Of a stretch of DNA of 11,989 nt, positions 6,609 to 10,427 are shown in pieces. The stretch is from Thermoleophilaceae bacterium (lineage in GTDB: Bacteria > Actinomycetota > Thermoleophilia > Solirubrobacterales > Thermoleophilaceae), in assembly GCA_013695885.1 (NCBI GenBank), contig JACCZP010000030.1, forward strand, positions 1-11,989, read 5' to 3'. A program made the position numbers and the translations under genes. Below the pieces are notes generated by a model. That model did not search any database. It was not told where the DNA came from and saw only the letters and a program-made list of their open reading frames with translations. The stretch's first letter is position 1; every line of letters starts with the position of its first letter.

Positions 6609-8066
6609 CTACTCGACGAGCCTTACCTCGAACGGGGGTAGGGAGATGTCGCCGGCCCCGCCCAGCAGCCCGAGGATGCGGGCGACGTACGCGCGCGTCT
6701 CCGCGTACGGCGGGATCCCGCCGTACCGCGCCACGGCGCCGGGACCGGCGTTGTAGGCGGCGAGGGCGAGCGCCGCGCTCCCGAATCGCCGGAGCAGCTC
6801 ACTCATCATGCGCGCCTGGGCGTTGATCGCGGCCTCGGCGTCGAACGGGTTTCGCAGCCCGTACGCGCGGGCCGTGCCCGGCATGAACTGGGCGATGCCG
6901 AGCGCACCGGCCGGGCTGCGAGCGAACGGGTTGAAATTGGACTCGGCGTAGAGCTGCGCCGCGAGCAGGTTCATCGGCACGTTGTGCCTCAGAGCCGCTC
7001 GCGTGATCGCGTCGCGATAGCGCTCGGGGACGAAGGACGGAAGCCGGTGGTGGACTCGGTCGTGATCGCCGTCCGGCGGCTCCCAGGCCCCCTTCTCGTA
7101 CTGGGCGGGCACATCACGGGGGTTCTTTCCGTAGCCGTAGTGCCAGGGCTCCCAGGCGTAACGGTGGATGAAGCCGAAGCGGCGGTGATTTCGCTTCAGC
7201 CACCCGTACGCCGCGGGCGGCGCGAGGTCGAGCTCGGTGGCGTAGCGGTGCAGGCTCGTGCCCGGCGGGGCTACCCACCGCGGATTCGGGTTGGCCGCGA
7301 ACAGCCTGCGCTGCTCGGCGTCCGAGCGGAACGCGCTGTTGATGCCCAGGGTGATGCCGTCCGCTCGGGCAGCCGCGGCCATGCGGTCGAAGGCCTGGGC
7401 GACGTCCGGACGCATGGGCTTCCCCATCCGGCAGGCCAGGGGGCCGCTATACCCGCCACCCGAGGCGACAGAGGCGCAGCCTCCGCTGCCTCCTCCGAGC
7501 GAGGCACCGGCCGACGCGGGTGGGGCAAGCTCCGCGGTCGCTCGTGCCCGAACGGGGACCGATGCTCCCCGCCCGGTCCCCGGCCCGGTGCCGAGCCGCA
7601 CCCCGGCCGAGCCGTGGACGGCGGTGGTCACCCGGGTCGGAGCGAAGGACCTTCGCTCCGGGAACGAGACGTCGGAGGGCGCGAGCGTCACTCCGTTGGC
7701 TCGTGCGCCCCTGACGGCGGCGGTGCGGGCGCGGGCGAGGTACTCCGTTCGTGAGAGGTGGCGCGGATTCGGCACGCCGGGGCGCAGATAAGGCGCGGCG
7801 AACAGCCGCGGGTAGGCATCCCGCATCGCTCGCGCGCCCGAGACCGCGGCCAGGTCCGCGGCACGCTGGTGGCTGCTCCTCGCGCCCAGGGCCTGCCCGA
7901 AGGCGCCGAGAACGAGGGTGCCGAGGACTATCGCCCCGGCGATACCGAGCAGGAGCACGAGCGACTGGCCCGACTCGCACCGGAGACGGGGGCCGGCTCG
8001 GCGGAGGAGCTCCACACCCGAGGAGGCACCGGCGGTTCTCGCGGCTCGCCTCAGGCTCAGTGCCAT
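6609..8066 (-). CDS. TadG-like anchor fused to VanY D,D-carboxypeptidase and SLT lytic transglycosylase
   Basis: A 485-residue membrane-anchored cell-wall enzyme with three parts. Residues 31-80 resemble the TadE/TadG-like anchor: ESGQS, a hydrophobic span (about 36-60), then HQRAADLAAVSGARA, the usual (Q)-x-AADAAALAGA helix. A Gly/Ala/Pro-rich linker with C197 and C212 follows. Residues about 215-315 are a VanY-type zinc peptidase: NSAFRSDAEQRRLF, SLHRYATELD (ligands H273 and D280, with the family's usual Gly replaced by A276) and EPWHYGYG (E306, H309). Residues about 350-465 are an SLT lytic transglycosylase: catalytic E375 in YAESNFNPFA, GALGIAQFMPGTA, AAYNAGPGAV. It should trim stem peptides and cleave glycan strands outside the membrane. 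The ATG, with GAGGGG 5 bases ahead, overlaps the upstream CpaE-like gene by 10 bases. Context implies that it opens the wall for a Tad-type apparatus. Confidence 0.88.
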   Translation of the reverse strand: MALSLRRAARTAGASSGVELLRRAGPRLRCESGQSLVLLLGIAGAIVLGTLVLGAFGQALGARSSHQRAADLAAVSGARAMRDAYPRLFAAPYLRPGVPNPRHLSRTEYLARARTAAVRGARANGVTLAPSDVSFPERRSFAPTRVTTAVHGSAGVRLGTGPGTGRGASVPVRARATAELAPPASAGASLGGGSGGCASVASGGGYSGPLACRMGKPMRPDVAQAFDRMAAAARADGITLGINSAFRSDAEQRRLFAANPNPRWVAPPGTSLHRYATELDLAPPAAYGWLKRNHRRFGFIHRYAWEPWHYGYGKNPRDVPAQYEKGAWEPPDGDHDRVHHRLPSFVPERYRDAITRAALRHNVPMNLLAAQLYAESNFNPFARSPAGALGIAQFMPGTARAYGLRNPFDAEAAINAQARMMSELLRRFGSAALALAAYNAGPGAVARYGGIPPYAETRAYVARILGLLGGAGDISLPPFEVRLVE

Positions 8067-9154
8067 AGCGACCCCTCGAGCGCGGCGGCCAGCTCGCCGA
8101 CCGCCAGTCCGATCTCGCCGCGAGCCTCGCGACCGGTAGCCGCCCGGCGGGCGGCGAGCCTCGACTCGGGCAGGACGACGTCGGCGCGGCCATCCCAGCG
8201 CGCGTCCTCTAGCGCCCGGTCAAGGACCACGGTGGGCTCGGGTGCAGAGCGGGCGATCGATTGGGCGACGACCTCGGCCAGGGCGGGCTCGACTTCGGGA
8301 GATGCCACCAGCAGGACGTGGTCGGCCACCGAGAGCGCAGCGTCGGGAGGCACACCGTGACCGACGTCGAGGATCAGCGGAGCGAGGTACGTAGCCGCGA
8401 TGGACAGCGGCGAATGCACCTCCGAGTCGACCAGGCACAGCCGCCCCGCCGCCCGCACGGGCTCGAGAGACCTCGCGCCGAGACCGCGGGCGAGCCGGGC
8501 CGCTCCCGGCATCCTCAGCGCACCCGCCCCCCGTGGGGCGACGGTGGAGATGATCGCGGCACCCTCCGGATCGCGAGCGGCAAGGGCGGCGGCCACCCAT
8601 CTCGCAACGGTGCTCGCTCCGCAACGTGGCGCCAGGCCGACCACCGCGACGACCGGGCGGGGAGGCGGCGAGACGTCGGAGATCGGCCCGTCGACCGGCT
8701 CGATCTCGGCGTCGAAGCCCTCGATGTCGACGTCGGTCATGGTGTCCCGCTCGCCGGCGTCGAGAGACCTGGGGCCCGCGGGGAAGGCGCTGGATGTGTT
8801 CCCAGCTCCGTGGCCCGGCTCGGTGCCTCCCGCCGCCCCGTCGTCCATCGCCACGACCGGATCGGGGGCGCCGGACGTGCGATAAGCGGACGCGTCGGCC
8901 TGCGCCGACGGCTCCCACGGCTCGAGCAATCCCTCGATCGCCGGTGGAGGCGCGGACGCATCGAGCCCGGGTGAGTCCGCTACCGGGCCTGAGCGCCTGA
9001 GCGAGTCCTCATGGTCCGGCTCGCCTATCGTCGGCAGGGAGTCGGCCGGCGCCCTGCGGTACGCCTCTCCCGGCTCGATCACCCAGCCGCGGGGCCGATC
9101 CACGACCATCGACACGCGACCGCGGGTGGTGGAGGTGCTCGACGACGGCGTCAT
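8057..9154 (-). CDS. CpaE/ParA-like P-loop protein with disordered N-terminus
   Basis: 365 residues. The first ~165 are rich in Pro, Ala, Asp, Glu and Ser and look disordered. The rest resembles the SIMIBI (MinD/ParA/CpaE) fold: VVAVVGLAPRCGASTVA (168-184) at the P-loop position, LILDVGHG (260-267) as a Walker-B-like strand, then ADHVLLVASPEVEPAL (277-291) as the usual switch-region segment. The P-loop reads CGAST where active ATPases have G-K-S/T, so the key lysine is missing, as in some CpaE-like proteins. TadZ/CpaE proteins place Tad pilus machinery at a cell site, and that role is inferred here. The start ATG at 9154 overlaps the upstream pseudopilin stop by 4 bases (ATGA), and the stop overlaps the TadG-peptidase ATG by 10. 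Family membership is moderately sure; nucleotide binding is doubtful. Confidence 0.72.
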   Translation of the reverse strand: MTPSSSTSTTRGRVSMVVDRPRGWVIEPGEAYRRAPADSLPTIGEPDHEDSLRRSGPVADSPGLDASAPPPAIEGLLEPWEPSAQADASAYRTSGAPDPVVAMDDGAAGGTEPGHGAGNTSSAFPAGPRSLDAGERDTMTDVDIEGFDAEIEPVDGPISDVSPPPRPVVAVVGLAPRCGASTVARWVAAALAARDPEGAAIISTVAPRGAGALRMPGAARLARGLGARSLEPVRAAGRLCLVDSEVHSPLSIAATYLAPLILDVGHGVPPDAALSVADHVLLVASPEVEPALAEVVAQSIARSAPEPTVVLDRALEDARWDGRADVVLPESRLAARRAATGREARGEIGLAVGELAAALEGSLWH

Positions 9155-9510
9155 CCCGCCACCGCCGCGGCCGCCCGGACCTCGAGCCGCCGGGCGATCG
9201 AGTCGATCGGCGTGGGGGGCCTCAACCACACCTCGACCCGGCGCCCGGAGACCCTGATGCGGACGTCTGCGCGAGACGCCTCGGGCAGCGCGTCGCGAGC
9301 CCCGGAGCGTCCGTCCCGCCCGGCGGCGAGCGCGAGGGCCCCGGCCTCGGCCGCGTTGCCGGCCAGCACCGCGGCGTAGCCCACGGCGAGGACGTGGAAG
9401 CAGACAATCCCGAGCACGAGCATCGCGGGCAGTCCACCGAGCAGCTCGATGCTCGCCTGACCACGCTCGCCGAGGACGGCGGAGCACCTGGCGCGGACCC
9501 TCCCGCTCAT
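9151..9510 (-). CDS. TadE-like pseudopilin (second)
   Basis: 119-residue minor-pilin-like protein. A basic leader ends at G17. Then comes QASIE, with Glu at position +5 of the mature protein as in Flp/TadE substrates of the TadV prepilin peptidase, and a hydrophobic helix (about 23-51) leading into GNAAEAGALALAAG. The C-terminal half is short and soluble, ending in a strand-rich RVSGRRVEVWLRPPTP region. TadE-family proteins are thought to act as minor pseudopilins of Flp/Tad pili, anchored in the membrane with the soluble part outside. The ATG at 9510 overlaps the previous gene's stop by 4 bases and has GGAG 7 bases ahead. The stop overlaps the CpaE-like gene by 4. It is clearly different from its upstream TadE neighbour, so the two are not a recent duplication. 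Confidence 0.82.
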   Translation of the reverse strand: MSGRVRARCSAVLGERGQASIELLGGLPAMLVLGIVCFHVLAVGYAAVLAGNAAEAGALALAAGRDGRSGARDALPEASRADVRIRVSGRRVEVWLRPPTPIDSIARRLEVRAAAAVAG

Positions 9511-9896
9511 CGCTCGGCTCCGAGGGAGGCCGTGGCGGAGACCGGAATCGAGGTGCTCCAGCGATGGGCGAGCATGGGCATCAGCACCGTGACCCGGGCG
9601 CCACCGTCGCTCTGGGCGTCGACCTCCAAGCCGGTCTCCAGGTAGTCGGGCAACAGGCTCCGCGCGGCGCTCTCGCCGTCCTTCCCGACCACCTCGGCGC
9701 GCGCCGCCGCCCGTGCGGCCTGGGCGCACTGCCAAGCCGTGTGCCCCGCGAGCGCGAGCTGCCAGACCACCGCTCCGACCACGAACACGAACGGCACCAC
9801 GGCGAGCGTCTCGACCGACGCCTGACCGAGCTGCCCCCGCCATCGGCGCGAGGGGACGACCGGTCGAGGGTGGTCCTCTGGGTGGCGTTCGGGCAT
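9507..9896 (-). CDS. TadE-like pseudopilin (first)
   Basis: 129-residue protein with a Pro/Arg/His-rich leader, then GQASVE (24-29), the cleavage motif with Glu at +5, and a hydrophobic helix at about 30-51. An Ala-rich segment of TadE type follows (QCAQAARAAARAEVVG), then a soluble C-terminal domain of about 55 residues. The role is inferred to be a minor pseudopilin of a Tad/Flp apparatus. First gene of the four-gene overlapping unit. The frame is open up to a TTG at 9932, but I chose the ATG at 9896 because it is the first standard start before the leader; a GTG at 9905 is also possible. None has a good ribosome site. I see no convincing promoter in the 87 bases upstream, so how the unit is transcribed remains open. 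Confidence 0.8.
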   Translation of the reverse strand: MPERHPEDHPRPVVPSRRWRGQLGQASVETLAVVPFVFVVGAVVWQLALAGHTAWQCAQAARAAARAEVVGKDGESAARSLLPDYLETGLEVDAQSDGGARVTVLMPMLAHRWSTSIPVSATASLGAER

Positions 9897-9983: not shown

Positions 9984-10334
9984 CTAATACCGGCTGGCGA
10001 ACACCCGGAACACCGCGAACGAGGCCAGCCCGAGCAGCGCGATCCACGCGAGCACGCCCAGCCCGCCGAAGGAGAACAGGCGGGGCGTGGCGGCGAACAC
10101 GAGGAAGGCGAGCCCGACCGCTGCGTAGAAGATCAGGCGGCGGCGGTCGTCCATGGCGTCGAGGGTGAAGGTGCGGTGCTCGCGGTAGAGGCGGTAGCCG
10201 AAGACGCCGATGGCCGCGAAGAACGCCATGGTGAGGACGGTCAGCACGATGTCGAGGGCCGGCCCCCCGCCCGGGGCCGCGGTCAGCGCCAGCGCGATCA
10301 GCCCGACGATCGCGATGTTGCGCGCGGTCTTCAC
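9984..10334 (-). CDS. Small four-span membrane protein of unknown function
   Basis: I do not recognise a family. The 116-residue product has about four hydrophobic segments (roughly 6-20, 26-48, 68-83, 90-111) and a charged loop between the second and third (RLYREHRTFTLDAMDDRRR), which by the positive-inside rule should be cytoplasmic. Third codon positions are strongly G/C. The frame is open 28 codons further upstream, but I chose the GTG at 10334 because the hydrophobic protein begins there and a TAAGGT hexamer lies 7 bases ahead. That hexamer can be read as a leaderless -10 box or, less likely, as part of a ribosome site. It follows uppP by 93 bases and precedes the pilus unit. The function cannot be deduced from context. 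Confidence 0.68.
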   Translation of the reverse strand: MKTARNIAIVGLIALALTAAPGGGPALDIVLTVLTMAFFAAIGVFGYRLYREHRTFTLDAMDDRRRLIFYAAVGLAFLVFAATPRLFSFGGLGVLAWIALLGLASFAVFRVFASRY

Positions 10335-10341
10335 GCCTCCG

Positions 10342-10347
10342 ACCTTA
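10342..10347 (-). promoter_or_regulatory. -10-like box before the four-span membrane protein
   Basis: TAAGGT (TANNNT) on the minus strand ends exactly 7 bases before the GTG at 10334, the same geometry as at uvrC and at the gene starting at 11881. A GGAGG also lies in the spacer, but only one base from the GTG, too close to act normally. No clear -35. Confidence 0.4.
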
Positions 10348-10427
10348 GGCGCCCGGCTCGCCTGCGGGACCCGGGCACGGACGCTCGGCGCCGGCCTGCC
10401 ACGGGGTGCACGCCCCACCCCGCCCGG

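Follow-up and report, generated by a model that had tools for sequence, protein, structure and literature searches.

A conserved TadG-type pilin-like protein carrying VanY and SLT domains, a candidate wall-opening component of Tad pili in Solirubrobacterales

How the fibre of a Tad pilus crosses the peptidoglycan is an open question, and a TadG-type pilin carrying two wall enzymes would offer a testable answer for one lineage. In a preliminary description of an 11,989-nucleotide stretch of DNA from a Thermoleophilaceae bacterium (the window), it was proposed that one 485-residue chain joins a TadG-like N-terminus, a VanY-type carboxypeptidase and an SLT lytic transglycosylase, and that its gene lies inside a Tad gene unit. 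The chain and its three parts are confirmed here by Pfam searches, by an alignment of 59 fusion homologues (the source of all the residue conservation and anchor match counts given below) and by an AlphaFold2 model; the bounds of the ORF are exact, and the features of the locus are collected in Table 1. The model, built on the 59 sequences with a mean pLDDT of 81.8, placed the N-terminal module first, followed by the VanY domain, a disordered linker (residues 315-339) and the SLT domain.

Table 1. Features of the fusion gene and its upstream neighbours in the window
Feature	Position	Strand	Remarks
Fusion gene: TadG-like pilin module, VanY and SLT	6609..8066	-	Pfam, AlphaFold2, 59-homologue alignment
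TadG-like hydrophobic N-terminus; PF13400 at residues 33-80; Gly at 33, without Glu at +5	7827..7970	-	
Predicted pilin-like head, residues 89-185 (helix 106-123, strands 145-157 and 167-181)	7512..7802	-	AlphaFold2
VanY-type zinc carboxypeptidase domain, residues 218-312 (H273, D280, E306, H309)	7131..7415	-	
SLT lytic transglycosylase domain, residues 353-451 (catalytic Glu E375)	6714..7010	-	
MinD/ParA-fold protein, 365 aa, non-standard P-loop; TadZ-like candidate	8057..9154	-	10 bp overlap with fusion gene
TadE-like minor pilin 2 (TadE2), 119 aa; G-QASIE class III-type site	9151..9510	-	4 bp overlap with P-loop gene
TadE-like minor pilin 1 (TadE1), 129 aa; G-QASVE class III-type site	9507..9896	-	4 bp overlap with TadE2
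Small membrane protein (hyp); cassette neighbour, outside the cassette	9984..10418	-	kept where the cassette is gone (L093, L095, L096)

Both enzyme domains scored over their Pfam cut-offs (SLT, PF01464, E 2.1e-21; VanY, PF02557, E 2.2e-14), and the positions that had been singled out as zinc-binding or catalytic held throughout the alignment, H273, E306, H309 and E375 being identical in 59/59 homologues and D280 in 58/59. For the VanY part, the closest solved chain by sequence was the L,D-carboxypeptidase BaLdcB (1e-4), followed by VanYB (8e-4), and of the NCBIfam models those for VanY matched (1.3e-4) and that for LdcB did not. We read this part as a probable VanY-type carboxypeptidase, D,D or L,D, with BaLdcB and VanYB both near and NCBIfam leaning to VanY. 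Foldseek and VIA-align showed that the enzyme parts of the model resemble VanY, LdcB, Slt and MltF structures. These results suggest that both modules would be able to cut the cell wall, an activity predicted here from sequence and fold.

The three-domain order was found well beyond this genome. Among 399 genomes sampled from the class, 340 gave some match at 1e-5, many of them to a single domain, and the strong matches (E<=1e-34, a number of them truncated at a contig end) were confined to five families (f1-f5). Of 396 genomes sampled from the phylum, 42 matched at E<=1e-25; outside the class the match covered the SLT region only (query about 260-421), and the same held inside the class for G015 (f10) and G055 (f5). 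The 20 named loci were mostly titled Thermoleophilaceae, Solirubrobacteraceae or Solirubrobacterales, three being titled 'Actinomycetota bacterium', and one Pseudotabrizicola record matched in the SLT part only. Three loci (L078, L083 and L085) carry Bifidobacterium breve MAG titles, yet their fusion genes are of Solirubrobacterales type (48-52% identity) and the titles look mislabelled. By hand count, a precomputed PF13400 assignment was present in 14 of the best 120 of 7801 protein matches and, for a distant query, in 72 of the best 120 of 7247; Miltoncostaea marina (P0211) was among the matches listed for the latter query. An assembly artefact or a single-genome oddity is ruled out by the strong matches throughout f1-f5 and by close proteins from many sources. 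By these comparisons, the TadG/VanY/SLT fusion makes up a family that is conserved among Solirubrobacterales and relatives of Miltoncostaea, and its domain order is widespread and stable within the class.

The anchor called for closer inspection, for in the window copy PF13400 (Tad) scored 19.6 bits (E 0.0012), under its cut-off of 22.3, and the NCBIfam Rv3654c-type TadE-like model (3.6e-4) was likewise under cut-off. Among the homologues, 48/59 matched PF13400 at E<=0.01 and one from family f5 reached 27.2 bits, over the cut-off, as the preliminary description had anticipated for a TadE/G-like N-terminus. The weak score is a trait of the window copy, the TadG-type N-terminus being recognizable for the family and marginal in this member. 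The model gave this module a long helix (residues 14-88) before the head listed in Table 1; the 10-residue blocks from 71 to 160 scored 83-97, and block 161-170 was lower (71). We therefore read the N-terminal module, on the model, as a predicted pilin-like fold. The structure searches with the whole model were dominated by matches to the enzyme domains, and the rows listed in the VIA comparison comprised lytic transglycosylase or VanY/VanXY/LdcB-type chains and no pilin, so that the N-terminal part was barely probed by either. The Gly at residue 33 was present in 53/59 homologues, the other six having a gap. Glu at +5, in contrast, was never found among the 59, where L, V, I or M stood in 55 and a gap in four; unlike the fusion, TadE1 and TadE2 of the window have it. 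Glu at +5 is usual in polymerising pilins, and GspK of type II secretion is likewise not known to have it. Its absence would be in keeping with a subunit that caps the tip or does not polymerise; Streptococcus sanguinis PilB is an example of a pilin with this Glu (PMC8179133; papers given by PMC number are cited, here and below, from excerpts).

The fusion gene is the last of a cassette of overlapping genes in the order TadE1, TadE2, MinD/ParA-fold protein and fusion (Table 1). TadE1 matched PF07811 over the cut-off (23.6 bits), and the MAG as a whole gave no other match to this profile at E<=0.1. TadE2 was without a Pfam match; with NF041390 (TadE_Rv3655c), TadE1 and TadE2 gave 2.5e-5 and 2e-4, both under cut-off. 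The family of the P-loop protein had no Pfam match either, and sequence searches of the PDB returned chance matches only. A model of its homologue P0250 (pLDDT 87.8) found its closest Foldseek matches in ParA/MinD proteins (3ea0, 7.7e-6; 1hyq, 9.9e-6), and a TadZ-like role, as judged from this model, is plausible. Inspection of the window's ORFs revealed no gene for a motor, for Flp or for a prepilin peptidase.

The order hyp-TadE-TadE-(P-loop)-fusion-uvrC-rapZ-gap-pgk-tpi recurred, whole or in part, in 20 fetched loci; for L042 the fusion was missed in this comparison of gene order and picked up in the ORF count that follows. Counted by a regular expression on ORFs that asks for Glu at +5, and in those loci that extend 2.3 kb or more upstream (some genomes being represented twice), there were two TadE-like ORFs upstream of the fusion in 28/35 loci, one in four and none in three, two of these three being a single locus split by an insertion. 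In L050, from family f5, TadE-TadE-fusion are joined directly, without the P-loop gene between. When 18 fusion-bearing genomes were searched with PF07811, 17 had a TadE match inside the cassette; TadE matches over the cut-off outside it were found in G124 and G356 only, at a second tad locus. The cassette can also be missing as a block. In G298, from the window's own family, the four genes are gone between the end of hyp at 8531 and the start of uvrC at 8646, a TadA match is absent and ppa-uppP-hyp-uvrC-gap-pgk-tpi is kept (genes named by eye); in two g38 genomes hyp likewise abuts uvrC.

Several loci showed further peculiarities. In L034, L035, L037, L039, L040, L043 and L044 a response regulator with a winged helix (PF00486, 1.3e-23 in L035) precedes the small membrane protein and the TadE genes. 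The fusion of G300 is interrupted between VanY and SLT by about 10 kb (L043:4958-15757), an insert that contains a recombinase-like gene, identified by eye, at 14135-15652. In G212, too, these two parts of the fusion are apart, on separate contigs. In G124 the cassette is split (L046:10949-18918) by some 8 kb that include IS21-like genes, recognised by eye as istA/istB-type, leaving the P-loop and TadE genes some 8-10 kb away from the fusion.

The other genes of a Tad system were looked for in 20 fusion-bearing genomes with PF00437, PF00482 (T2SSF) and PF01478 (A24 peptidase), and TadA, TadB/C-type (T2SSF) and A24 peptidase matches were obtained in 19 of them. Profile searches of the window's own 87%-complete MAG found no TadA, T2SSF, A24 peptidase or Flp, its single PF00437 match being PilT. 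In none of the 19 genomes were the motor genes adjacent to the fusion; they lay at least 78 kb away or on other contigs, and the closest distance on one contig (78 kb) was that of G356 to its second tad locus. The proposed placement of the fusion inside a Tad gene unit, beside tad genes, thus stands for the two TadE-like genes and the MinD/ParA-fold gene that precede it, the TadE genes being its usual neighbours in other loci too, and falls for tadA/B/C. Four fusion-bearing genomes (G198, G364, G256 and G041) had TadA as their sole PF00437 match, from which it follows that the fusion does not need a classical type IV pilus; such a pilus as its partner in place of Tad is rejected on these grounds.

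Two kinds of tad locus could be told apart. Type I, represented by 45 stretches, consists of tadA-B-C without a Flp, TadE, TadG or CpaB match and with a TadZ match in 4/45; it often lies near mraZ-rsmH-ftsI, with mraZ in the same stretch in 35/45 (stretches L051-L138). This position hints that fibre extrusion might be coupled to wall synthesis. In type II, tadA-B-C can be accompanied by Flp, TadE, TadG, CpaB and TadZ. The TadA types were separated by tblastn score on a hand-chosen set of stretches, with narrow margins for f5 and a few others. Fusion-positive genomes mostly had a type I locus, with an extra type II in G124, G356 and, by a narrow margin, G007; in G202, which has the fusion, the TadA found was of type II only. 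Eight of the 28 TadA-positive, fusion-less genomes were examined, all from g36/g38, and in all eight the locus was of type II with TadZ beside TadA.

The major pilin was less conspicuous. PF04964 (Flp) scored over its cut-off in 1/20 fusion-bearing genomes, PF14029 gave weak matches and none over cut-off in 16 genomes, and a class III regular expression run around tadABC and the A24 peptidase found no pilin. Seven stretches fetched at weak PF14029 matches yielded Flp-like ORFs in five genomes, of about 80-100 aa, with the motif GQGT[VI]EY and weak Pfam scores, which argues against a Tad system without a major pilin. The Flp-like gene adjoins rph-rdgB in G103, G118, G198 and G017 (L150-L153; neighbours by eye), with murI, also by eye, lying in between in the last two; it forms a further, unlinked Tad locus. 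Of the two remaining stretches, that from G260 was not pilin-like and that from G093 encodes the phospholipase A2 protein described below.

Fusion and TadA were compared across 203 genomes of f1-f5, with both present in 123, the fusion only in 28, TadA only in 28 and neither in 24 (Fisher p 1.8e-4, a descriptive value, as related genomes are not independent). The table and the few-contig count below were compiled by hand, and 'neither' is an undercount, as genomes without a match (39 in the fusion search, 141 in the TadA search) were placed only if the other listing named them. A strict one-to-one co-occurrence is ruled out by the two classes of 28. Full PF00437 re-searches of 12 fusion-only genomes, 91-98% complete, gave no TadA-like match. 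The TadA-only genomes comprised 17 from g36/g38 and 11 from elsewhere; these 11 were 72-93% complete, and several of them (e.g. G258, G133 and G316) have a type I-like TadA, matching the type I query over almost its whole length. Among the listed assemblies of at most 10 contigs, TadA was present in 23/23 fusion-positive ones and in 2/3 fusion-negative ones, both of type II. Fusion and TadA were both absent from the genera g10, g33, g43 and g50 (four, two, one and three genomes). The co-occurrence with a mostly dcw-linked TadABC, together with the absence of the cassette from TadA-less lineages, supports a link to Tad, with exceptions.

These figures also bear on a broader role, that of a lineage-specific autolysin which acts in growth, division or recycling, has taken over a TadG anchor and has lost its pilus role. 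Neighbours such as uvrC, rapZ and uppP would suit a general wall enzyme of this sort, as would the frequent location of tadABC near dcw genes and the lack of a TadA match in 28 of the 151 strong-match genomes and in the window's own MAG. The TadE genes, however, travel with the fusion, four genera are without both fusion and TadA, and every listed few-contig assembly with the fusion has TadA; we find a general wall enzyme improbable. That the protein is a dedicated wall opener of a Tad machine, acting at its tip or at its base, seems to us likely. The preliminary description had suggested a wall-opening enzyme of the pilus machinery, and that suggestion gains from the joint presence and absence with Tad and is weakened by the window's own MAG, in which no motor was detected.

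By analogy with the TadE/TadF/TadG tip complexes and with CpaL, both discussed below, we read the cassette as a trio with a muralytic head. The fusion and the two TadE-like proteins encoded upstream would make up the complex that primes the fibre of a Tad (type IVc) pilus or forms its tip; the remaining genes of that pilus are located elsewhere, namely tadA-tadB-tadC, the Flp-like pilin by rph-rdgB and a separate prepilin peptidase. The long first helix would hold the fusion in the cytoplasmic membrane; as the trio primes the filament, the VanY module would trim stem peptides and the SLT module would cut glycan strands, and through the local hole so made in the peptidoglycan the fibre would extend. 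We infer the complex with the TadE proteins, the tip position, the enzymatic activity and the opening of the wall for the fibre. That the fusion is a modular TadG-type minor pilin, acting in such a trio of a dispersed Tad pilus to open the peptidoglycan, has in our estimate an even chance of being right. Against it stand the missing Glu at +5, the distance of the motor genes from the fusion, and the genomes in which fusion and TadA occur one without the other or, as in G202, the fusion occurs with a type II TadA only. The fuller picture of a Tad pilus that carries its own drill for the wall, each fibre cutting itself a passage, in which a muralytic TadE-TadE-TadG trio has its genes scattered and the motor genes are often housed in a cell-wall cluster, is offered more tentatively and is somewhat doubtful. 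Rather unlikely, in our opinion, is a membrane-fixed opener, in which the TadG-like part is an anchor at the Tad platform and the enzymes cut from the base, ahead of or during fibre extension, without ever entering the fibre. It would explain why no homologue with a residue at +5 has Glu there, and the long first helix and the disordered linker would give the enzymes access to the wall from their place in the membrane; the predicted head is nevertheless pilin-like, and the TadE-TadE-TadG trio matches the modelled tip complex of other Tad systems, both of which speak against it and for a subunit of the fibre.

A related genome, G093, encodes a second enzyme-bearing pilin-like protein of the class, in which a prokaryotic phospholipase A2 domain (PF09056, 8.9e-26) continues in frame from a pilin-like N-terminus, GQASAEYVGLIALLALL (L156:2564-3337, minus strand). 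Such a protein could be taken to favour a tool turned outward, whose tip enzymes would breach the walls of other cells, and not that of the producer, in competition, predation or DNA release. The gene for the TadG/VanY/SLT fusion is, however, conserved and syntenic across families, which is untypical of weapons, and no immunity-type gene was noticed by eye among the ORFs of the cassette. Although Tad-like pili of Myxococcus with different tips mediate contact killing (PMC12075869), we hold an outward use of the fusion to be very improbable.

Among known systems, the best TadE-type models for TadE1, TadE2 and the anchor, all under their cut-offs, were those of the Rv3655c-Rv3654c pair (NF041390, TIGR03816). 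That pair is not known to carry enzyme domains and has tadA-B-C nearby in its loci, whereas tadA-B-C was far from the fusion in the genomes compared. With the VanY/LdcB carboxypeptidases and the family 1 lytic transglycosylases (Slt70, MltF), each module shares its fold and catalytic residues; the fusion differs in putting both on one chain with a pilin-like anchor. The fusion-bearing bacteria are presumably monoderm, and PleA of Caulobacter is a separate protein, not known to be fused to a pilin. PleA, a lytic transglycosylase homologue needed for the pili and the flagellum, resembles the fusion in being a lytic enzyme homologue required by a Tad pilus (PMC5182063), and LytF aids pilus extrusion in a monoderm (PMC13192262). 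According to the excerpt of a 2025 paper, no peptidoglycan hydrolase or lytic transglycosylase has been reported with the Tad pilus (PMC12307814). Our search of titles and abstracts, in which subscription literature was thinly covered, found no account in which a Tad pilin and a peptidoglycan hydrolase are fused; the automatic JGI annotation already gives the domain combination in its product names.

The closest precedents are other minor pilins. TadE-, TadF- and TadG-type minor pilins have been proposed to form the tip complex of the Tad pilus (PMC12075869), and Caulobacter CpaL, modelled at the tip, joins a TadG-like pilin to a vWA module (PMC12607857). Like the fusion, CpaL has a TadG-type N-terminus with a large extra module, and it acts with two other minor pilins (PMC12607857); the module is a vWA there, in contrast to two peptidoglycan-cutting enzymes here. 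Streptococcus sanguinis PilB and PilC likewise have a functional module grafted on a pilin (PMC8179133). The anchor of the fusion is of Tad type, whereas the survey of modular type IV pilins that treats them began from another N-terminal domain, IPR012902; its excerpts note peptidase modules (S74, M26) and name no muralytic module (PMC8179133). We conclude that the muralytic TadG fusion, with its predicted activity and location, is a new variant of the modular minor pilins and, if the proposed role is true, would extend modular pilins from binding modules to wall-cutting ones.
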